A DNA stretch of 64,000 bases. Origin: Chryseobacterium indoltheticum (GTDB taxonomy: Bacteria > Bacteroidota > Bacteroidia > Flavobacteriales > Weeksellaceae). The stretch lies in assembly GCF_003815915.1 (NCBI RefSeq), contig NZ_CP033929.1, positions 2,728,001 through 2,792,000 of the forward strand, given 5' to 3'. Below, piece by piece: positions 36,676 through 45,483 of this stretch. The notes below the pieces were generated by a model. That model saw nothing but the letters and a program-made list of their open reading frames with translations, made no database searches and was not told the DNA's origin. Made by a program: the position numbers and the translations under genes. Each line of letters begins with the position of its first letter. The stretch's first letter is position 1.

Positions 36676-37108
36676 TAATTTATTATAGTATAATTTGTTG
36701 AAATTTTTTTCTCTTTATAGCGTATAGTGATTATTAAATTCACTAAAAGCTATAGCATAATATTCTTCTGTAAGTTTGATACAAAAATAATATATATCAC
36801 ATTGAAATGAAAATATTTGTGTTTTTTAATTGTCTTTAAATAGATAATGATTACTAATTTCTGAGAATCAAGATATTAAATTAATAATATGCAATATTTT
36901 AAACTGATTTTTCGCATTGTACAATAGTTTAAAAATAGTAAATTTTATTGATATTAAAAACATTTTGTATGATTTTATTTGTTTAATGTTTAATTATTTT
37001 GTCATTTTATAATTTATTTAATAATATTATAAACGATTAAAAATGATTAATAAAAAATAATAAGTGAAAATTTTTACAATTAATTCATACATATATTATT
37101 ATTTTGAG
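36676..37108. other. AT-rich gene-free tract, nothing recognised
   Basis: Upstream region of the 36058 gene and of the candidate small RNA. No promoter box with proper spacing to 36675, no hairpin with T run and no meaningful short frame seen. Confidence 0.45.
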
Positions 37109-37116
37109 TATATTTG
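37109..37116 (+). promoter_or_regulatory. -7 element of the candidate RNA at 37122
   Basis: TATATTTG, an exact TAnnTTTG match; no convincing -33 TTG. Chance occurrence is possible in this AT-rich tract. Confidence 0.4.
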
Positions 37117-37121
37117 AAATG

Positions 37122-37187
37122 AAAATTTTTTTTTCATCATTTGTGTTTTTATTAAACCCTCCGACTCGGAGGGTTTAATTTTTTCCT
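37122..37187 (+). ncRNA. Candidate small RNA or leader-peptide transcript
   Basis: A strong orphan terminator, ATTAAACCCTCCG (37151-37163) with CGGAGGGTTTAAT (37167-37179), is followed by TTTTTTCC, with no plus-strand gene upstream. The TATATTTG box predicts a start near 37121. An overlapping 19-codon frame from ATG 37120 (MKIFFSSFVF... ) stops inside the 3' arm of the stem. If the RNA starts at 37121 this ATG would not be used, so a non-coding RNA is simpler. Between 37188 and 37329 nothing was recognised. Confidence 0.4.
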
Positions 37188-37329
37188 ATACTTTCCGTTT
37201 CTATTCGTCAAACTTATTTTTAAACTTTATACATTTTATAGTGTATACAAATAGCTGCTTTTTTGAAATTCTCAAAAAAATATTTTCATAACTTACAGAT
37301 TAAATTACCAACACTACAAATTTTTAATT

Positions 37330-38100
37330 ATGAGAATAGGTTTAATAGGATTTGGAAAAGCCGGAAAAGCAGTGGCAAACGTAATATTGCAAAACCCTGA
37401 ATTTAGTCTTGAATGGGTTTTAAGGAGCAGCAGGAATATGGAAAATACATCTGTAAAAGAATTACTTGATGTAAAATCCAATGATAAGGCTCTTGTATTT
37501 TCTGAACAAAGTATAGAGATCAATGAACATTTTAGTAAACATCCGGTAGATGCAATTATAGATTTTTCTTCTGCAGAAAGTATTTATAAATATGGAAAAG
37601 CTGCATCTGAACAGAAAATAAAAATTATTTCTGCAATTTCTCATTATGGAGATGAGGAAATAAAACTTTTAAAGGAACTTTCCAAAATAAATACGGTTTT
37701 CTGGTCACCGAATATAACTTTAGGTGTCAATTATCTTTTATTTGCAGCAAGCCTTCTGAAAAATATCGCTCCAGATGTAGATATAGAAGTTGTTGAAGAG
37801 CATTTTAAAGCAAAAAGCGGTGTCTCAGGAACCGCAATTAAAATAGCAGAAACTTTAGATATAGAGAAAAATAGCATCAGCTCAGTCCGTGCGGGAGGAA
37901 TTGTGGGAAAACATGAGGTAATCTTTGGATTTCCTTATCAAACAGTGCGTTTGGTTCATGAATCAATTTCCAGAGAAGCATTCGGAAGCGGTGCACTCTT
38001 TGTGGCAAAACAACTCAAAAACTACTCAAAGGGACTTTATAATTTTGAAGATATCCTCAGGCCTTTCTTCTTTGGTGATGCCAAAAATAATCTTTCATAA
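37330..38100 (+). CDS. DapB-like dihydrodipicolinate reductase homologue with altered active site
   Basis: 256 residues. N-terminal Rossmann motif GLIGFGKAGKAVA (residues 4-16), IIDFSSAES and the SPNITLGVNYLL segment follow DapB. The catalytic segment, normally E-HH-x-x-K-x-D-x-PSGTA, here reads EEHFKAKSG-VSGTA (156-169). One His is kept, the second is Phe, Lys is kept, and the Asp-x-Pro is lost with a one-residue deletion. RAGGIVGKHEVIFG matches the later DapB strand. It may be a divergent paralogue with another substrate, or a low-stringency DapB. Single gene. Confidence 0.78.
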   Translation: MRIGLIGFGKAGKAVANVILQNPEFSLEWVLRSSRNMENTSVKELLDVKSNDKALVFSEQSIEINEHFSKHPVDAIIDFSSAESIYKYGKAASEQKIKIISAISHYGDEEIKLLKELSKINTVFWSPNITLGVNYLLFAASLLKNIAPDVDIEVVEEHFKAKSGVSGTAIKIAETLDIEKNSISSVRAGGIVGKHEVIFGFPYQTVRLVHESISREAFGSGALFVAKQLKNYSKGLYNFEDILRPFFFGDAKNNLS

Positions 38101-38217
38101 AAACTATTCTTATTATGAAATATAGTTAATTTTTCAATTTATATAGAGTTTTAATTGTTAGATTCCGTAAATATAAAATAGAGGCTTCAATTAAAAATAT
38201 TCGCATTTTTATAAAAA

Positions 38218-38231
38218 GGCACACAATATGC
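38218..38231 (+). promoter_or_regulatory. Sigma-54-like promoter of the small membrane protein gene
   Basis: AGGCAC-ACAAT-ATGC: GG at 38218-38219 and GC at 38230-38231, 12 bases apart, close to TGGCAC-N5-TTGC. Predicted TSS near 38242 leaves a leader of about 25 bases to the ATG. Confidence 0.5.
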
Positions 38232-38254
38232 TTATAACAAGATATAAACCTTAA

Positions 38255-38437
<183 letters not shown>

Positions 38438-38460
38438 AAAAAATAATTAATAAAATTAGA

Positions 38461-38490
38461 AAAGCTGAATAGTAATATTCAGCTTTTTTT
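38461..38490 (+). terminator. Terminator of the small membrane protein gene
   Basis: Stem AAAGCTGAAT (38461-38470) with ATTCAGCTTT (38477-38486) followed by a T run. Confidence 0.85.
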
Positions 38491-38742
38491 TAGGCTAATT
38501 ATAGAATTTTATTATTAAAAATTTTCGAGCATCTAGCAAAATATATTCAATTTAAGTTTTAATTCGCCATAGAAATCTGTACGAGACAAAATATAAAGTT
38601 AAAAATTAACCAAGCCATCAAACACTTAAACTAATTAATATTCAATTAATTAAAATTATTGTTTTTGATATTCTATCCTAATTATTATGTCACGATTTAT
38701 AAATAGCCCCCACAATAAGTTGTTGATGAAATTTTATGATGA
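38491..38742. other. AT-rich spacer, nothing recognised
   Basis: Part of the 524-base gap between the small membrane gene and the TPR/AraC regulator. The second half of the gap contains the candidate small RNA. Confidence 0.4.
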
Positions 38743-38750
38743 TATATTTG
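38743..38750 (+). promoter_or_regulatory. Promoter of the candidate small RNA at 38755
   Basis: TATATTTG (exact TAnnTTTG) with TTG at 38720-38722, 20 bases upstream (another TTG at 38723-38725), so both elements are at the usual spacing. Confidence 0.55.
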
Positions 38751-38754
38751 TTAC

Positions 38755-38935
38755 AGATAAAACAAGACACTTAAATCATTCATATATAATAACTTTTCAT
38801 CATTCAGTTTTCATGTAGAACATCAGGGTTCTGACAATCTAGGAAAAAGAACCCTGTTCTCTACAATTCTAAATTAGACACCAGTATCACATTCTATTAA
38901 TAGAAAAACCGAATCTTCTTTGAAGGTTCGGTTTT
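38755..38935 (+). ncRNA. Candidate small RNA convergent with the TPR/AraC regulator gene
   Basis: From the promoter above, about 180 nt to the bidirectional terminator. It contains an imperfect hairpin, TAGAACA..CAGGGTTCT (38817-38833) with AGAACCCTG..TTCTCTA (38849-38864), and no coding frame. Its 3' end abuts the 3' end of the regulator mRNA. Confidence 0.4.
38905..38935. terminator. Bidirectional terminator of the regulator gene and candidate RNA
   Basis: A 14-bp stem (AAAACCGAATCTTC with GAAGGTTCGGTTTT, one wobble, TTT loop) and T-rich flanks on both strands. Confidence 0.8.
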
Positions 38936-38961
38936 CATTTGAATACGTTTAACGTTTACAG

Positions 38962-40668
38962 TTAAGAATTATTTTGATCTTCGAGTTCTTTAATTCTCTT
39001 TTTAATAAAATCAGCTGGTCTTATCCCATTTTGTTCAAGGAAAATATTTGAGAAACTTTGTCTGTTGCTAAAACCGGCAGCTGAAGCAATAGACTCAATA
39101 GAGTACTTTCTCCACTCTTTATCATGATAAATCTTCTGGGTTGCGTAGTTGATTCTTAAAGCATTAATATAAGTGTTGAAATTGCTTCCTTTATATTCGT
39201 TGATAACTTGTGAAAGATAAGATGTGTTTGTTTTAAACTGTTCTGCGAGCTTCTTAAGCGTTATTCCCTGTTCCAAATAACCTTGTTTATTTTCGAATGT
39301 ATGAATATCATTGAGAAGCTTTTCTACAATACTGCTATCAAACTTTATATTTTTATCCCCCGAATCAATTACTTCAGATTTTACAGGAGCATCAACTACT
39401 TCATTCTGATTACTTTCTTCAAGCTTTATTAATAATTCGTTATAGTTTATTTGGATATTCCTTTGTTTTCGGATTCTGAAGTACATTACAATTCCTAATG
39501 CTATAATAATTGCTAAACAAATAAATATGAGTAATTTACTATAAGAATTAGTTTTCTCTAAATTTTCTTTTGTTTCTAAAAGCTTCTTTGTATCATATTC
39601 TTTATAAACGCGCGTAGAAAGATGTTTAAAATCTGACGAAATTACACTATCTACCTTAAGAAGCTGATTGGTATAATATAACTCCTCTTTATGATTATTA
39701 CCTTTTCGATAATATTCGATTAATTCTTCATAATTGCTTCGTAATTCTGGAAGAATAAATTTATTTTTATTGAATATAGAGTCTACTTTTCTGTAATTTT
39801 CCACTTCAAGATTTTGATCACCCAGAAGCTCATAACTTTTACCTTTATAAAAATAAATATATGAAGCCCATGTAAAATCATTAACCTTGAGTAGTTCAGG
39901 TAGAGCTTTATCAAAATAATAAATTGCTTTTTTGTAATTTTTATTTTTAAATTCAGAAACGCCTAAACTTTTTGTAAAATAACTTTTTTCTAAGTAAAAT
40001 TCTTTTGTCTTTGGAGTTTTTTCTGCTGCTTTTTTTAACAAACTAGCGGCTTCTGCATTCTTACCGAGCATTTGATAACAAATAATCGCCTGATGTAAAG
40101 AATTTAAATAACCTTTGGTACTATTAAAAACTTGATTTTCATTAATATCTCCATCAATCTTGGTTTCAAAAAAATTGATACATTGTTCAAATATTTCAAG
40201 AGCTTCATCATAGTAGCCTAAATAACTTTTTACAACACCTATATGGTAAATATTCTGGTATTTTAAATATTCATTTTTAGAATCCTTTAGATATTCATAT
40301 GCTTTTAGATATTCTTCTAGAGCATATTGGAATTTTCTTTGGTTAAAATAATAAATAGCACCTTTACTTAAAAATGCTTGTCCAATAAGATCATTTTTTC
40401 CAGATTTTTTAGCGACAATTAAAGCACTATCTGCATAAATCATTTTATGCTTTTCGGAGTATAGGATTGCATCTTTATAGGCCTGAAAAAGTTCGGAATA
40501 GTTGTTTTCTGATTTCGCTTTTTTAATATATTGATTTACAAATACAAATGCCTTAGGATCATTTTCCTCATAAGCCCAGTACTTTTCTCTAAGCTTTGAG
40601 TAATAATCTTGCGAATACATCATATTAATAATGAAGAAGCAACTAAACGTAAAAATTCTTTTAATCAT
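38962..40668 (-). CDS. Membrane-anchored TPR sensor with cytoplasmic AraC-type DNA-binding domain
   Basis: 568 residues. Signal peptide 1-19 (MIKRIFTFSCFFIINMMYS), then about 350 residues of TPR-like helical repeats (for example FQYALEEYLKAYEYLK, YYDEALEIFEQCINFFE, NYKKAIYYFDKALPELL) that would lie in the periplasm. One transmembrane helix is at about 379-397 (LLIFICLAIIIALGIVMYF), followed by a short coil and an AraC/XylS helix-turn-helix domain at about 460-560 (TLKKLAEQFKTNTSYLSQVINEY, SIESIASAAGFSNRQSFSNIF). The single chain thus can sense outside and bind DNA inside. It is divergent from two small lipoproteins with PRDGxHW repeats; a regulatory link is an inference. Such TPR/AraC proteins are frequent in Chryseobacterium. 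Confidence 0.88.
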   Translation of the reverse strand: MIKRIFTFSCFFIINMMYSQDYYSKLREKYWAYEENDPKAFVFVNQYIKKAKSENNYSELFQAYKDAILYSEKHKMIYADSALIVAKKSGKNDLIGQAFLSKGAIYYFNQRKFQYALEEYLKAYEYLKDSKNEYLKYQNIYHIGVVKSYLGYYDEALEIFEQCINFFETKIDGDINENQVFNSTKGYLNSLHQAIICYQMLGKNAEAASLLKKAAEKTPKTKEFYLEKSYFTKSLGVSEFKNKNYKKAIYYFDKALPELLKVNDFTWASYIYFYKGKSYELLGDQNLEVENYRKVDSIFNKNKFILPELRSNYEELIEYYRKGNNHKEELYYTNQLLKVDSVISSDFKHLSTRVYKEYDTKKLLETKENLEKTNSYSKLLIFICLAIIIALGIVMYFRIRKQRNIQINYNELLIKLEESNQNEVVDAPVKSEVIDSGDKNIKFDSSIVEKLLNDIHTFENKQGYLEQGITLKKLAEQFKTNTSYLSQVINEYKGSNFNTYINALRINYATQKIYHDKEWRKYSIESIASAAGFSNRQSFSNIFLEQNGIRPADFIKKRIKELEDQNNS

Positions 40669-40894
40669 CAGATATTTCTAAGAAATTTTATTCAAAAATA
40701 CATAAAAACTATTTATTATAAGCTATTGCGGGGTAACCAGAGTAATTATTTAACATATCATTTATTTAAATTTTTGTATTTTTGTAGGGTAAAAATTTAT
40801 AAATCGTACCGAGATATATTTGCAATTATATATATATTTAACTATTTTCGAACAGCTTATTAAGAACAAATATAATCATTAATCCTAGAATAAA
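40669..40894. promoter_or_regulatory. Divergent promoter region of the regulator and the PRDGxHW genes
   Basis: Exact TAnnTTTG boxes occur on the plus strand at 40777-40784 (TATTTTTG) and 40815-40822 (TATATTTG), and on the minus strand at 40867-40874 (TATATTTG). The facing boxes overlap the region where the regulator could bind, with leaders of 70-190 bases. No clear palindrome was found for an AraC operator. Confidence 0.45.
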
Positions 40895-41218
40895 ATGAAA
40901 ACAAAATTTATTGTACTCAGCCTCATAGCAGTGGGAATCTCCACAATTAGTTGTAGGCAAGATGATGAAAACCCAGTAGAGGATACTTTTGAGTCATCTT
41001 TAAAACAAAATTCTAATGAAGAACTTCAAAAAAATAGTGGTGATTCTTTGGTAGTAGAAGGTCTGGAAACTGACCCTCCAAGAGACGGAACACATTGGAA
41101 AGTAGATGATGCCAATGAAACAAAAAAAATTGATTCTCTATCATTACTTTTTGAAGTTAATACAGATAATGGACCAAAAGATATTCCAAGAGATGGTACT
41201 CACTGGAAAGGAAAATAA
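40895..41218 (+). CDS. Small lipoprotein with two PRDGTHWK repeats
   Basis: 107 residues. Lipoprotein signal MKTKFIVLSLIAVGISTISC (Cys20), then an acidic, Asn/Gln-rich segment without fold. PPRDGTHWK at residues 61-69 and PRDGTHWK at 98-105 near the C-terminus are separated by a 28-residue linker. The repeats are the most conserved part shared with the next gene. This resembles precursor proteins from which short peptides could be released, but could equally be a binding module. It has its own terminator. Confidence 0.75.
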   Translation: MKTKFIVLSLIAVGISTISCRQDDENPVEDTFESSLKQNSNEELQKNSGDSLVVEGLETDPPRDGTHWKVDDANETKKIDSLSLLFEVNTDNGPKDIPRDGTHWKGK

Positions 41219-41237
41219 AACTAAAATTTTGATAATA

Positions 41238-41269
41238 AAAAAACCTGCTAATTATTCAGCAGGTTTTTT
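41238..41269 (+). terminator. Terminator after the first PRDGxHW gene
   Basis: Stem AAAAAACCTGCT (41238-41249) with AGCAGGTTTTTT (41258-41269). Confidence 0.85.
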
Positions 41270-41374
41270 GTATTTTAATTCTGGAAATTAAAATTATTTT
41301 GTCAAATCAATTCTATAGACATCTGTATATTATTATTTTTAGTATATTAGAAGTATTAAATTTTTAAAACCAAC

Positions 41375-41728
41375 ATGATGAAAAAAAAGATTATCTCAAT
41401 CAGTCTGATCGCAATTGCCCTTTGTAGTATTTCTTGTAGAGAAACTGAAGAAATGTTAATAGAAAATGAGCAACCACAAATAGCTTTAAAGCTACAAGAA
41501 AGTCAAGAACCATCTAAAACTGGAATTAATTCTACAGTTGTTGACTATAAACCAATAAAAATTAGTTTTTTAGGTGCTGATAATAAGGACTGTCCACCCC
41601 CACCACCACCACCCCCGCCCAATCCTAATACTCCTAGAGACGGCGCACATTGGTTGACTTCTGACACAGATAATTGCCCAGATCCTCCAAGAGACGGTAG
41701 TCATTGGAGAATGGGAGCAAGAAATTAA
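41375..41728 (+). CDS. Small lipoprotein with polyproline and two PRDGxHW repeats
   Basis: 117 residues (or 116 from the second Met). Signal ending SISC (Cys21), acidic spacer, then a nine-Pro run (74-82), PRDGAHW at 87-93 and PPRDGSHW at 104-111, closing RMGARN. The region after the Pro run carries three Cys (73, 101 and the lipid Cys 21). It is paralogous to the previous gene in signal peptide, architecture and motif, despite low identity elsewhere. The variable sixth residue (T, A, S) suggests that PRDG and HW are the functional core. Confidence 0.75.
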   Translation: MMKKKIISISLIAIALCSISCRETEEMLIENEQPQIALKLQESQEPSKTGINSTVVDYKPIKISFLGADNKDCPPPPPPPPPNPNTPRDGAHWLTSDTDNCPDPPRDGSHWRMGARN

Positions 41729-41733
41729 ACATA

Positions 41734-41766
41734 AAAAAACTTGTTGATAAATTCAACAAGTTTTTT
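41734..41766. terminator. Bidirectional terminator
   Basis: Stem AAAAAACTTGTTGA (41734-41747) with TCAACAAGTTTTTT (41753-41766), serving the second PRDGxHW gene and the convergent TPR gene. Confidence 0.85.
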
Positions 41767-41814
41767 TATGTAATGTGATCTAAAAAGTTGTGATTTTATA
41801 TAAATCTTTTAAGA

Positions 41815-42867
41815 TTACTTAGCTTTAGCCTGAAGCTCAGCTTCTTTAGCTTTCATTTCAGCAACTTTTGTCTGATTTTTCAACATTCCGTAAATGTCTT
41901 TTAAAACACCTACTGCATCGATGTTATTAGGACTTGCCTGATACCATTTCTCAGCGTGAGGTAAAGCTTTATTGAATCTCTCTTTTCTTGCCTCAATTAA
42001 TGTTGTCGCTTTATCCGGATCTGATTTTCTTATTGCATTGATTTCTTCAACCGCTTTAGAATCGTCACCAATAGTTGTATAAACTAAGTTTTGATAAGCG
42101 TTATCCTTTAATTTAGTATCAGTAGAAGCCAATTCAATTGCTTTGTTAAATGAAACAACAGCATCAGCCTCTGTAGCGGGAGTTTTTGATTGCAAAACTC
42201 CTAAGTTATACCAATTTGTAGCATCATTAGGATTCTTAGCTAACTGCTCCTTAAGATTTGACATGAATTGATCTGTCTTACCTGTTGCGTATAAAGCTGA
42301 ACCATGATACTCTTTTAATTTAGCATTATTAGGATATTTAGCTAAACCTTTTTCGATTAATGCCAAAGCTTCGTCATTTTTCTTTGCATTTAAAAGCAAT
42401 GTTGACAAAGTTTCATATAAATCTGGCTCTACACTTTTAGTTTGCTCGGTTTTAAAATCAGAGTAATCTTTTGATGAGCTTTTCTTCAACAAATCCCATG
42501 TAGCTTTATCATAAGCAGATACCTGCCCTGTTTTATTTTCTTTTGCCGTATAGGTTGTCTGAACTCCCGTATACCCAGAATTGATTAAATCAGTATAAAT
42601 TTTAATCGATTCATCCAAGTTATTTGCCAATGCATAACTTAAACCAGCATAATACTTATATGTTTTATCTTCTTGACCGTTTGCTTTAAGCAAATCATAA
42701 AGTTCTATGAACTTGGGTCCTGCAACCGTATAATTTTTTGCATTATACGCATCCATCGCTGCTTTATTAGTAGCCTGAACCTGAGCATTTACATCTTTTT
42801 TCTCTTCTTTCTGCCCAAAAGCAAAAACAGAAGAAACGATTGCTATACCTAAAATTAGCTTTTTCAT
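41815..42867 (-). CDS. Exported TPR-repeat protein
   Basis: 350 residues with a signal peptide (MKKLILGIAIVSSVFAFGQ) and tetratricopeptide repeats through most of the chain (NYTVAGPKFIELYDLLKANG, NDEALALIEKGLAKYPNNAKLKEYHGSALYATGK, DATNWYNLGVLQSKTPATEADAVVSFNKAIEL). The C-terminal part, AEKWYQASPNNIDAVGVLKDIYG, is a further repeat. It would be a periplasmic scaffold; partner unknown. It follows gyrA by 24 bases and is probably co-transcribed with it. Confidence 0.85.
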   Translation of the reverse strand: MKKLILGIAIVSSVFAFGQKEEKKDVNAQVQATNKAAMDAYNAKNYTVAGPKFIELYDLLKANGQEDKTYKYYAGLSYALANNLDESIKIYTDLINSGYTGVQTTYTAKENKTGQVSAYDKATWDLLKKSSSKDYSDFKTEQTKSVEPDLYETLSTLLLNAKKNDEALALIEKGLAKYPNNAKLKEYHGSALYATGKTDQFMSNLKEQLAKNPNDATNWYNLGVLQSKTPATEADAVVSFNKAIELASTDTKLKDNAYQNLVYTTIGDDSKAVEEINAIRKSDPDKATTLIEARKERFNKALPHAEKWYQASPNNIDAVGVLKDIYGMLKNQTKVAEMKAKEAELQAKAK

Positions 42868-42891
42868 AAATAAGAATTTTATTATTTTTTA

Positions 42892-45483
42892 TTATTCTTC
42901 AGAATCTGAATTTTCAGTTTCATCAACCGGATTTTCATTTTCTACATTATTTTCTGTTTGTGTGGAAGTGTCTTCTTCAGTTGGAATATTTTCCACAGAC
43001 TCTTCTCCTTCAATTATATCCTCTTCCACATCTTTATCCATTGCAACTTTTGCGATCGCTGCAATCTCATCATTCTTTTTAAGATTGATCATTCTTACCC
43101 CTTGAGTATTTCTACCCATCACACGCATTTCATCCATATTCATTCTGATAGCAACACCAGATTTATTGATAATCATCAACCCATCTTCGTCTGTAACATT
43201 TTGAATAGCAATAAGATTACCTGTTTTTTCAGTAATATTTAATGTAATAACACCTTTTCCGCCTCTGTTGGTAATTCTGTAATCTTCAACCGCTGTTCTC
43301 TTACCATATCCTTTTTCAGATACGACAAGAACTGTATCATTTTCCAGATCGTTCACAACAATCATACCAATAACCTCATCATTCTCCTCCATCGTAATAC
43401 CACGAACACCGATAGATCCTCTACCCACTTCTCTTACTTTTTCTTCAGGGAAACGAATACATTTACCATTTTTAGTAGCGATCATGATCTGAGATTCACC
43501 GTTAGTAAGATAAGCACTTAGCAATTGATCGTTTTCTCTGATCTCAATAGCGTTGATACCATTTACCCTAGGTCTTGAGTAAGCTTCTAGAGATGTTTTC
43601 TTAATCGTACCGTTTTTAGTAATCATCACCACACTCATTTGGTTGATGTAATCTACATCTTTCAAATCATTGGTTCTGATATATGCTTTAATCTTATCAT
43701 CCGGCTCGATGTTGATTAAGTTTTGTACTGCTCTTCCTTTTGCCGTTTTAGAACCTTCAGGAATTTCAAATACTCTTAACCAATAACATTTCCCTTTTTC
43801 TGTAAAGAACAACATATATTGGTGATTGGTTGCAGAAACGATATACTCCAAGAAATCTGAATCTCTCGTTGTTGCCGCTTTATTACCAACACCACCTCTA
43901 CTTTGAATTTTGTATTCTGAAAGCAATGTTCTCTTCACATATCCTGCGTGAGAAATGGTAAGAACAACCGCTTCGTTCGGGATAATATCTTCGATAGACA
44001 TCTCACCTCCTGAATAATCGATTTCTGTTCTTCTTTCGTCGCCGTATTTTTCCTTTATTTCAATTAATTCATCCTTAATAATTTGGAATCTTCTTGGTTC
44101 ATTAGCCAAAATATCTTCTAAATTATTAATCTCTTTCATAATAGCATCGTACTCATCGCGGATCTTATCAAGCTCCATTCCTGTAAGACGAGCCAAACGA
44201 AGATCAAGAATTGCCTGAGCCTGAATTTCTGATAATTCAAATGCCTCAATCAAACCTTCTTTAGCACCTTGCGGATTGGCACTGTGACGAATAATTGCAA
44301 TCGCTCTGTCTAAAGAATCCTGAGAACCGATCACCTTCATGAAACCTTCAAGAATGTGGGCTCTTTCTTTAGCTTTTCTAAGCTCGTACTCTGTTCTTCT
44401 TACAATCACCACATGTCTGTGCTCAACAAAATGGTGAATAATGTCTTTTAAATTCAACTGCTCTGGTCTTCCGTGTACTAAAGCGATGTTGTTTACACTG
44501 AAAGACGTTTGTAGTGAAGTATATTTATATAATAAATTCAGAACAACATTAGGAATTGCGTCATTTTTTAATTCATAAACGATACGCATCCCGTTTCTGT
44601 CTGATTCATCTCTGATCTCATAGATACCCGGAATTTTTTCATCTTTTACCAACTCAGCAGTTCTGGCAATCATTTCAGCTTTGTTTACCTGATAAGGTAT
44701 CTCTGTTACGATGATTGCATTTCTGTTGTGTACTTCCTCGAAGCTTACTTTTGCTCTAAGAACCACTCTTCCTCTTCCTGTATGGAAAGCATCTCTTACC
44801 CCGTCGTATCCATAGATGATTCCACCCGTAGGAAAATCCGGAGCAACAATATGCTGCATCAACTCGTCGATCGTAATTTCTCTGTTATCAATATATGCAC
44901 TGATTGCATCTACAGCTTCAGAAAGATTGTGAGGCGCCATATTCGTCGCCATACCTACCGCAATACCAGAAGTACCGTTTACCAAAAGATTTGGGATTTT
45001 TGTAGGCATTACGCTCGGTTCAGTTAAGCTGTCATCAAAGTTATTTTGAAAGTCAACCGTTTCTTTATCAAGATCTGATAAAATTTCGTCTGAAACTTTT
45101 TTAAGCCTTGCTTCGGTATAACGCATTGCTGCAGGCGGATCACCATCCATCGAACCGAAGTTACCCTGACCGTCAACCTGTGGATAACGTAAACTCCAGG
45201 GCTGAGCCATTCTTACCATTGCGTCATAAACTGAAGAATCTCCATGTGGGTGATATTTACCTAAAACATCCCCAACAATTCTTGCTGACTTCAAATATTT
45301 TCTGTTTGAGAAGACCCCCAAACCATACATACCATAAAGCACTCTTCGGTGTACTGGCTTAAGACCATCTCTTACGTCCGGTAATGCTCTCGAAACAATA
45401 ACCGACATCGAATAATCAATGTAAGATGATTTCATTTCATCAACAATGTTGATAGGAATTAATCTCTCTCCTTCTTTTTGCAT
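42892..45483 (-). CDS. gyrA: DNA gyrase subunit A
   Basis: 863 residues. Introduces negative supercoils with GyrB. The catalytic Tyr is residue 122 ([10 protein letters not shown]), same number as in E. coli. The quinolone-determining segment reads [10 protein letters not shown] (78-87), so positions 83 and 87 are Ser and Asp, the sensitive type. Six C-terminal beta-pinwheel blades include a GyrA box QSRGGVGN. The last 45 residues form an acidic tail rich in E, D, N and T ([14 protein letters not shown]...), usual for flavobacterial GyrA. Confidence 0.96.

Follow-up and report, generated by a model that had tools for sequence, protein, structure and literature searches.

A short lipoprotein tail as the possible ligand of a divergently encoded membrane TPR-AraC regulator in Chryseobacterium indoltheticum

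The locus considered here lies in a 64-kb stretch of the Chryseobacterium indoltheticum genome (contig NZ_CP033929.1, positions 2,728,001 to 2,792,000; below, the window), the surrounding genome being 4.25 Mb in a single contig. It comprises a gene for a membrane regulator that combines tetratricopeptide repeats (TPR) with an AraC-type helix-turn-helix (HTH), two genes for small lipoproteins, both of which run divergently from the regulator gene, and, beyond the 3′ end of the regulator gene, a stretch that we propose encodes a small RNA (sRNA). In window coordinates, with the basis of each assignment in brackets, the features are:

38696..38704, + strand: TTTATAAAT core, proposed operator of the sRNA (pattern search)
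38720..38750, + strand: sRNA promoter, TTG at -33 and TATATTTG at -7 (sequence and pattern)
38755..38938, + strand: proposed sRNA of about 184 nt with estimated ends, convergent with the regulator gene (conservation, promoter, terminator)
38905..38935, + strand: sRNA terminator hairpin, possibly common to the regulator transcript (hairpin prediction)
38962..40668, - strand: TPR/AraC membrane regulator gene, 568 residues (domain matches and structure model)
39001..39249, - strand: AraC-type HTH (HTH_18), residues 474-556 (domain match)
39478..39540, - strand: predicted transmembrane segment, residues 377-397, followed by RIRKQR (sequence reading; within model helix 360-421)
39631..40605, - strand: TPR superhelix, residues 22-346, probably periplasmic (model secondary structure; location from signal peptide and transmembrane segment)
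40255..40488, - strand: residues 61-138, which hold most of the columns that co-vary best with the motif (co-change and maximum likelihood tests)
40796..40804, + strand: TTTATAAAT core, proposed operator of lipoprotein 1 (alignment and pattern search)
40820..40850, + strand: lipoprotein 1 promoter, TTG at -33 and TATTTTCG at -7 (sequence and pattern)
40883..40889, + strand: TCCTAGA in the lipoprotein 1 leader, complementary to an sRNA loop (sequence complementarity)
40895..41218, + strand: lipoprotein 1, 107 residues, proposed ligand, with two motif copies and lipobox ..ISCRQ (sequence)
41078..41098, + strand: first PRDGTHW of lipoprotein 1 (DNA pattern search)
41186..41206, + strand: second PRDGTHW of lipoprotein 1 (DNA pattern search)
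41238..41269, + strand: terminator-like hairpin between lipoproteins 1 and 2 (hairpin prediction)
41375..41728, + strand: lipoprotein 2, 117 residues, lipobox ..ISCRE, motif copies at 41633-41653 and 41687-41707 (sequence)

An initial annotation of the locus had described the regulator as a one-chain sensor with a signal peptide, TPRs, a transmembrane segment and an AraC-type HTH, and the domain matches and structure model bear this out. The HTH_18 match (E 1.8e-11; 44.6 bits against a cut-off of 33.6) identifies an AraC-type HTH, and the TPR_2 match (E 4.5e-9) identifies the kind of domain that RRNPP receptors also possess, a fold that is generic. The model has a mean predicted local distance difference test score of 90.5 and includes a helix at residues 2-18 at its N-terminal end and a long helix at 360-421 that contains the hydrophobic stretch, with the HTH after it; as read from the sequence, the protein would carry a signal peptide and a single transmembrane segment and would be oriented with its TPRs outward. 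The genome encodes one further close full-length paralogue, likewise accompanied by a motif lipoprotein, and two distant TPR/HTH proteins, both without one. For the family of membrane TPR-AraC regulators our searches found no known input.

A DNA pattern for PRDGxHW had four matches in the whole genome, all within the genes of lipoproteins 1 and 2, and the reversed pattern had none, which confirms the two facing lipoproteins with two copies apiece that had been annotated. The motif is real, but PRDGxHW turned out to be a restricted version of the wider P-x-[KR]-[DN]-x-x-x-W, and it is not, as had been thought, the sole well-conserved part of these proteins, the lipobox Cys-Arg being equally invariant among eight close lipoproteins. 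Neither lipoprotein had a family match above a curated cut-off, and matches to PHROGs were weak. To describe the motif we started from 175 regulator-lipoprotein pairs, which left 151 distinct regulators after duplicate removal and 146 with an alignable motif (L128, L133, L134, L164 and L169 were left out). Numbering the aromatic residue (W) as 0, P at -7 is present in 146/146 (P and the aromatic residue being partly imposed by how the search was built), K or R occupies -5 in 140, D or N occupies -4 in 128, and positions -3 to -1 are variable. One motif copy is found in 123 of the lipoproteins, two in 20 and three in three. The linker from the lipid-bearing Cys to the motif is poorly conserved in sequence and fairly constant in length (mean 44.4, standard deviation 8.0, quartiles 41 and 48.75, range 12-82), and a scripted check with a loose criterion found a lipobox in all 151 lipoproteins. 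Given this anchor and linker length, a tethered ligand fits at least as well as a free peptide. Several different regulator-lipoprotein pairs may occur in one genome, up to three having been seen (e.g., G135, G139, G140 and G144).

Is the pairing of lipoprotein and regulator conserved? The exact PRDGxHW DNA pattern was present in 5 of 148 genus genomes, including the one studied here, and each of these five encodes the regulator divergently from lipoprotein 1; the neighbours on the far side are not the same, apart from one gene that G059 and G139 share. A profile built from eight lipoproteins matched 65 of 146 genus genomes at 99 places, of which 94 were examined, the window's two and three second lipoproteins beside a first being excluded. 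The regulator was divergent and directly adjacent in 90 of these 94 (86 by script, plus four with non-ATG regulator starts), including L128, L133 and L134, where the regulators are distant and the tail lacks W. Two of the four misses were matches to the signal peptide only (L131 and the second match in L095) and the other two were motif-lipoprotein fragments (L087, G142:C2:18248-19112) in a 27.8-kb contig with no regulator nearby. Starting instead from the regulator, in a scan of named genomes that include Chryseobacterium, Epilithonimonas, Cloacibacterium, Elizabethkingia, Kaistella and Pedobacter, we kept 80 of 115 related loci, and in 66 of these 80 a short protein bearing the motif, or a close variant of it, is encoded divergently (55 by pattern and 11 by reading, some of the latter deviating from [KR][DN]). 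Searches of the family and order, some of whose loci overlap the other sets, gave 52 loci that were read; among the 26 with at least 37% identity, 21 had a motif lipoprotein (one of them, L150, with Y at the end of the tail), and the five misses include one locus that is cut. Motif proteins therefore mostly adjoin TPR/AraC genes, and the outcome on which the annotated link would have failed, namely that they are mostly unlinked, did not occur.

These surveys also yielded observations on individual loci. The regulators of L061, L067, L097 and similar loci apparently start at GTG or another non-ATG codon, and that of L070 (G073:C4:236570-236815), one of the 90, matched in two pieces and is possibly broken, its lipoprotein being intact. 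The regulator-first loci lacking a motif lipoprotein are L207, L208, L219, L222, L223, L225, L229, L233, L234, L236, L238 and L242, ten of which are alike upstream, with a gene taken for efflux-type. Distant regulators in L167, L168, L169, L170, L171 and L194 face short secreted proteins that have PPRD, PPPRK, PPKK or PPRK as their last residues, possibly an older or shortened form of the tail, and those in L165, L175, L176, L177 and L178 face lipoproteins of about 230-246 residues without the motif. Downstream of the lipoprotein, 47 of 88 loci (e.g., L058, L071 and L120) have a MauE-type gene cluster (PF07291, from a representative match), often with small secreted proteins, some of them DUF6520-like, and a 55-residue protein without a Pfam match; the cluster is possibly cargo of the circuit. 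Among the downstream clusters seen, no protease or exporter gene was constant.

If the tail is recognized by the regulator, the variable residues of the one might be expected to have changed together with particular residues of the other. We placed changes of motif residues and of regulator columns by parsimony on the regulator tree. When the ten columns that co-change best with -3 to -1 are considered, seven of them (I68, Q138, A104, L69, D93, F61 and K65) lay within residues 61-140, a number reached in 0 of 1000 simulations. In these simulations each branch received motif changes according to its share of all regulator changes, which is not a full evolutionary model. The strongest single co-change was that of -2 with A104 (10 of the column's 21 changes on the 21 branches with a motif change, 2.1 expected), and -4 co-changed with Y134 (6 of 11, 1.0 expected) and Q138 (6 of 15, 1.3 expected). 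An excess in the same region was weak for -8 (4 of the top 10, p 0.035) and was not seen for -5 and -6, and signal-peptide positions, used as a control, placed 0-4 of their top 10 there. Most of the co-changing residues are on model helices 57-70, 92-110 and 133-149, which we regard as the A helices of three TPRs in a row; in TPR domains it is the A helices that line the concave face.

A maximum likelihood test of correlated evolution, in which the trait was D at -4 or not, ranked residues 134 and 138 first and second among 210 columns, with likelihood ratios of 35.8 and 29.7 against 18.6 for the third column. The 210 columns of a run combined every second variable column with others preselected from the co-change test, so that the ranking is not fully blind. 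D at -4 goes with Y134 in 90 of 91 sequences and with K or R138 in 88 of 91; where -4 is N or S (45 sequences), F134 is found in 34 and Q138 in 28. In our judgement the evidence for co-variation is good for -4 and for the region 61-140 and weak for single pairings at -3, and the lipoprotein tail seems to have evolved in step with an outward-facing pocket of the regulator.

Upstream of the lipoprotein promoter, the intergenic alignment contains a conserved block that surrounds TTTATAAAT. The 64 kb of the window hold exactly two occurrences of TTTATAAAT-N15/16-TTG, where about 0.15 per strand are expected: one at 40796, before lipoprotein 1, and one at 38696, before the proposed sRNA. A fuller pattern (TTTATAAAT with one mismatch allowed, 14-17 nt, TTG, 18-23 nt, TANNTT(T/C)G) was found both at the lipoprotein and beyond the 3′ end of the regulator gene in 10 of 10 loci of the same clade. 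In a sister clade (L052-L055, L057 and L065) the TTTATAAAT core stands in tandem with a 22-bp period at 6 of 6 sRNA loci. A conserved 17-mer of the lipoprotein promoter occurs once in the genome at up to one mismatch, as does its reversed-pattern control. AraC-type regulators bind direct-repeat half-sites close to the -35/-33 box, and for them a site just upstream of -33 is a usual activator position. The form of both promoters, as read from the sequence, fits the Bacteroidota consensus TTTG/TANNTTTG with its numbering of the -7 box (PMC6847099).

That an sRNA might lie at 38755-38935 had already been suspected, and the suspicion gains support from a conserved non-coding stretch with a promoter, a terminator and the common TTTATAAAT element. 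With the -7 box TATATTTG at 38743-38750, position +1 would be at about 38755 by the numbering in PMC6847099. The stretch is 92-95% identical in L043, L044, L047 and L048, whose divergent intergenic regions are 72-86% identical, and more distant loci align at 76-86%. It is predicted to fold into an internal hairpin and the terminator. A model built from the ten loci of the clade and searched across 146 genus genomes matched 12 of them, the ten source loci strongly, as expected, and G091 and G110 weakly. Four extra copies are far from any regulator copy in the flanks seen: one in the same genome (L289, G000:C1:2131049-2131265), one in G057 and two in G041 (the others being L288, L290 and L291), and three of the four have the same promoter pattern. 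The sister clade has a related arrangement beyond the regulator, with a hairpin of its own; L056 and L095 have none. In six other clades the 3′ flank of the regulator gene was poorly conserved in five (5-17% invariant columns) and, in clade D, 64% invariant among four close loci, where we take it for coding sequence.

The lipoprotein may also be controlled at the RNA level. TCCTAG is present in the leader of all ten loci of the clade, and the sRNA and lipoprotein 1 have complementary blocks of 8 and 7 bases in the right order (GTTTTCAT with the start and TCTAGGA with -12). The duplex energy was matched by 4 of 500 shuffles and was only sixth among 48 gene starts in the window, and no such blocks were seen in the sister-clade alignment; repression of lipoprotein 1 by the sRNA is a suggestion only, drawn from complementarity. 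Of 88 lipoprotein leaders, 59 (e.g., L117, L062 and L075) have GGCCGGGATAA at a distance of 25-39 nt from the start codon, no more than two mismatches being allowed, and none of the 17 own- and sister-clade loci does. Among 47 distinct cases, the 7-mers GGGATAA, GAGATAA or similar are able to pair fully with codons just past the start in 38, whereas with shuffled codons the figure is 11%; the hairpin so predicted would place the start codon in its loop, and the pairing may instead reflect coding constraint on those codons. In the genome studied here the exact GGCCGGGATAA 11-mer occurs once, in the leader of the second pair's lipoprotein (G000:C1:1781624-1781634). The L117 leader had no Rfam match. 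Structure in mRNA tunes translation initiation in F. johnsoniae (PMC6847099), and in many clades the supply of ligand may accordingly be set at the RNA level.

How might these elements work together? In the circuit we propose, the short tail P-x-[KR]-[DN]-x-x-x-W, carried by a small lipoprotein on a poorly conserved linker of about 45 residues, would be the ligand, and the regulator would be anchored in the inner membrane, its TPR superhelix projecting into the periplasm. The tail would be bound by helices of the first TPRs and the signal would pass via the transmembrane helix to the AraC-type HTH, which would bind the site with the TTTATAAAT core just upstream of the -33 box and activate the lipoprotein promoter and, in this clade, that of the sRNA beside the regulator gene. 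The outcome would be positive feedback on the ligand, possibly with a brake at the RNA level. As to the trigger, we lean towards the amount of tail reachable from the inner membrane, as set by lipoprotein supply, location or export, and away from a diffusible peptide; the lipid anchor and the length of the linker speak for a tail that stays tethered and is sensed within the envelope. We consider it somewhat more probable than not that the tail binds the TPR groove and that the regulator then activates lipoprotein and sRNA. We infer the binding, the orientation, the protein that binds the element, activation over repression and the function of the sRNA; the computed support consists of the linkage, the motif, the co-variation, the shared promoter element and the conserved sRNA-like stretch. 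The annotated idea of a peptide circuit gained from the linkage, from co-variation of the motif with TPR helices and from the common promoter element, and lost the kinship with RRNPP systems beyond the TPR fold, since the architecture differs.

Several results weigh against this proposal. At the level of whole-domain distances the motif and its signal-peptide control are not separated (partial r 0.36 and 0.45, respectively), and when permutation was confined to tight HTH clusters the observed value was reached 120 times in 499, as against 0 in 499 for looser clusters. Since the signal peptide of the lipoprotein scores just as high as the motif, we did not accept a whole-domain mirror tree as proving interaction. 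The maximum likelihood test of -3 as basic or not gave no signal in the TPR groove (top columns I249 and K261), that of -2 as T or not was mixed (G101, Y134 and I104 were in the top five, with F41 first and E425 fourth), and the highest z, taken alone, fell short of significance both for -3 to -1 pooled (p 0.107) and for -3 (p 0.52). The pair in the window itself has D at -4 and Y134 but Q138, making it one of the three exceptions to the pairing of D with K or R138. Beyond co-variation, 12 of the 80 regulator-first loci lack a motif lipoprotein (two more are cut at a contig end), and the promoter pattern was found anywhere in the tested regions in 16 of 88 loci, a search by pattern not finding the operator core in most other clades. 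Could the two genes then be an ordinary regulator-target pair whose products never touch, their co-variation reflecting the shared descent of linked genes? The domain-level equality of motif and signal peptide, and the failure of -3 and part of -2 in the maximum likelihood test, speak for it. We nevertheless think this unlikely, as the column-level signal centres on residues 61-140 for the motif and not for signal-peptide positions, residues 134 and 138 lead the test for -4, and it is the C-terminal motif and not the linker that is conserved.

Other alternatives accept contact and alter its meaning, or concern the sRNA. The lipoprotein could be a negative co-component whose bound tail keeps the regulator inactive until the tail is lost, for instance by surface export. 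Co-variation is silent on sign, and of 116 unique family members 98 have at least two acidic residues at +2 to +6, compared with 15 of the 46 other lipoprotein-like open reading frames that served as control, a set with some false calls and SusD-type proteins in it. The acidic N-terminal end of the mature lipoprotein resembles the surface export signal (LES) of Bacteroidota, a polar or positive residue followed by acidic ones at +2 to +6 (PMC5080379), and export could therefore remove the tail from the sensor. The position of the proposed operator, a usual one for activators of the AraC type, argues the other way and leaves a negative role an improbable one in our view. If instead the tail were cleaved, left the cell, re-entered the periplasm of neighbours and bound the TPR domain there, it would be an intercellular signal; the motif is repeated up to three times per protein, as in multi-copy precursors, and peptide pheromone receptors have the TPR fold in common. 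The lipobox found in all 151 by the loose criterion and the fairly constant distance from anchor to motif suggest in turn that the anchor matters, and the downstream clusters seen offer no constant protease or exporter. Signalling by a released peptide strikes us as quite unlikely. Lastly, the stretch at 38755-38938 could be merely the 3′ untranslated region of the regulator gene or a DNA element. It belongs to no Rfam family (0 matches at gathering score in 37000-43000; a permissive search gave weak matches only), just 3 of its 27 predicted base pairs show changes in both partners, and RNAalifold gives a covariation term of only -0.03. Its promoter, hairpins and terminator are all on the + strand, opposite the regulator, and the extra copies stand apart from regulator genes, so that we regard this possibility as very unlikely.

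The circuit we favour recalls several known systems without coinciding with any of them. It has the TPR fold in common with the RRNPP receptors (Rap, NprR and PlcR), including peptide-bound NprR and Rap proteins. Those receptors are cytoplasmic, many with an N-terminal XRE-type HTH, whereas the regulator is neither cytoplasmic nor has its HTH N-terminal; it has a signal peptide, a transmembrane segment and a C-terminal AraC-type HTH, and its proposed ligand is a lipoprotein. Its membrane anchor and C-terminal AraC HTH place it outside the RRNPP group. In the co-component systems VtrA/VtrC and ToxR/ToxS a membrane-tethered transcription factor is encoded alongside a separate envelope protein (PMC9214523), and the locus is similar in pairing a membrane-tethered regulator with a neighbouring envelope-protein gene. 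The partner in those systems is downstream in the same orientation and has a lipocalin-like fold, whereas here it is divergent (90/94) and offers a short tail, and the DNA-binding domain differs; with a divergent partner the pair falls outside co-component systems as described. Like the regulator here, CadC is a membrane regulator made of one chain, with a TPR domain as part of its periplasmic sensor (PMC9214523). The DNA-binding domain of CadC is at the other end of the protein and of another family, and we know of no lipoprotein ligand of this kind for it. If our leading view of the trigger holds, the locus would also resemble NlpE-Cpx and RcsF-Rcs, in which lipoproteins are monitored (PMC6538781). 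In each case an inner-membrane system would be informed by an outer-membrane lipoprotein. NlpE-Cpx and RcsF-Rcs have two-component or phosphorelay output and folded sensor lipoproteins, unlike the one-chain regulator and C-terminal motif ligand found here. The pair works like a blend of RRNPP-like and co-component function, and searches of openly licensed papers, judged by title and opening of the abstract, found no description of it.

More tentatively, as a possibility that we do not yet hold to be the likelier outcome, we suggest an undescribed class of Gram-negative ligand-receptor systems, in which each membrane TPR-AraC receptor would have a lipoprotein of its own and read the C-terminal P-x-[KR]-[DN]-x-x-x-W of that protein. 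The pairs, of which as many as three were seen in one genome, would be differently tuned and distinguished by the tail residues near W and matching residues of the TPR helices. Each would control its lipoprotein, probably clade-specific neighbours and, in one lineage, an sRNA regulon, and the cell or its neighbours would thereby monitor lipoprotein delivery. If true, this would mean a TPR receptor outside the cytoplasm that reads a protein tail, dozens of related ligand-receptor pairs from which to work out a recognition code, a named ligand for the membrane TPR-AraC regulator family, and, in the Bacteroidota, a small RNA whose promoter element is defined and for which a regulator can be proposed.

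Two minor observations concern the surroundings of the sRNA. A minus-strand match to BTnc049 (E 0.3) was taken as chance. Between dapB and the sRNA, 38267-38437 on the + strand encodes a small membrane protein of the lmo0937 family (NF033488, 58.2 bits).

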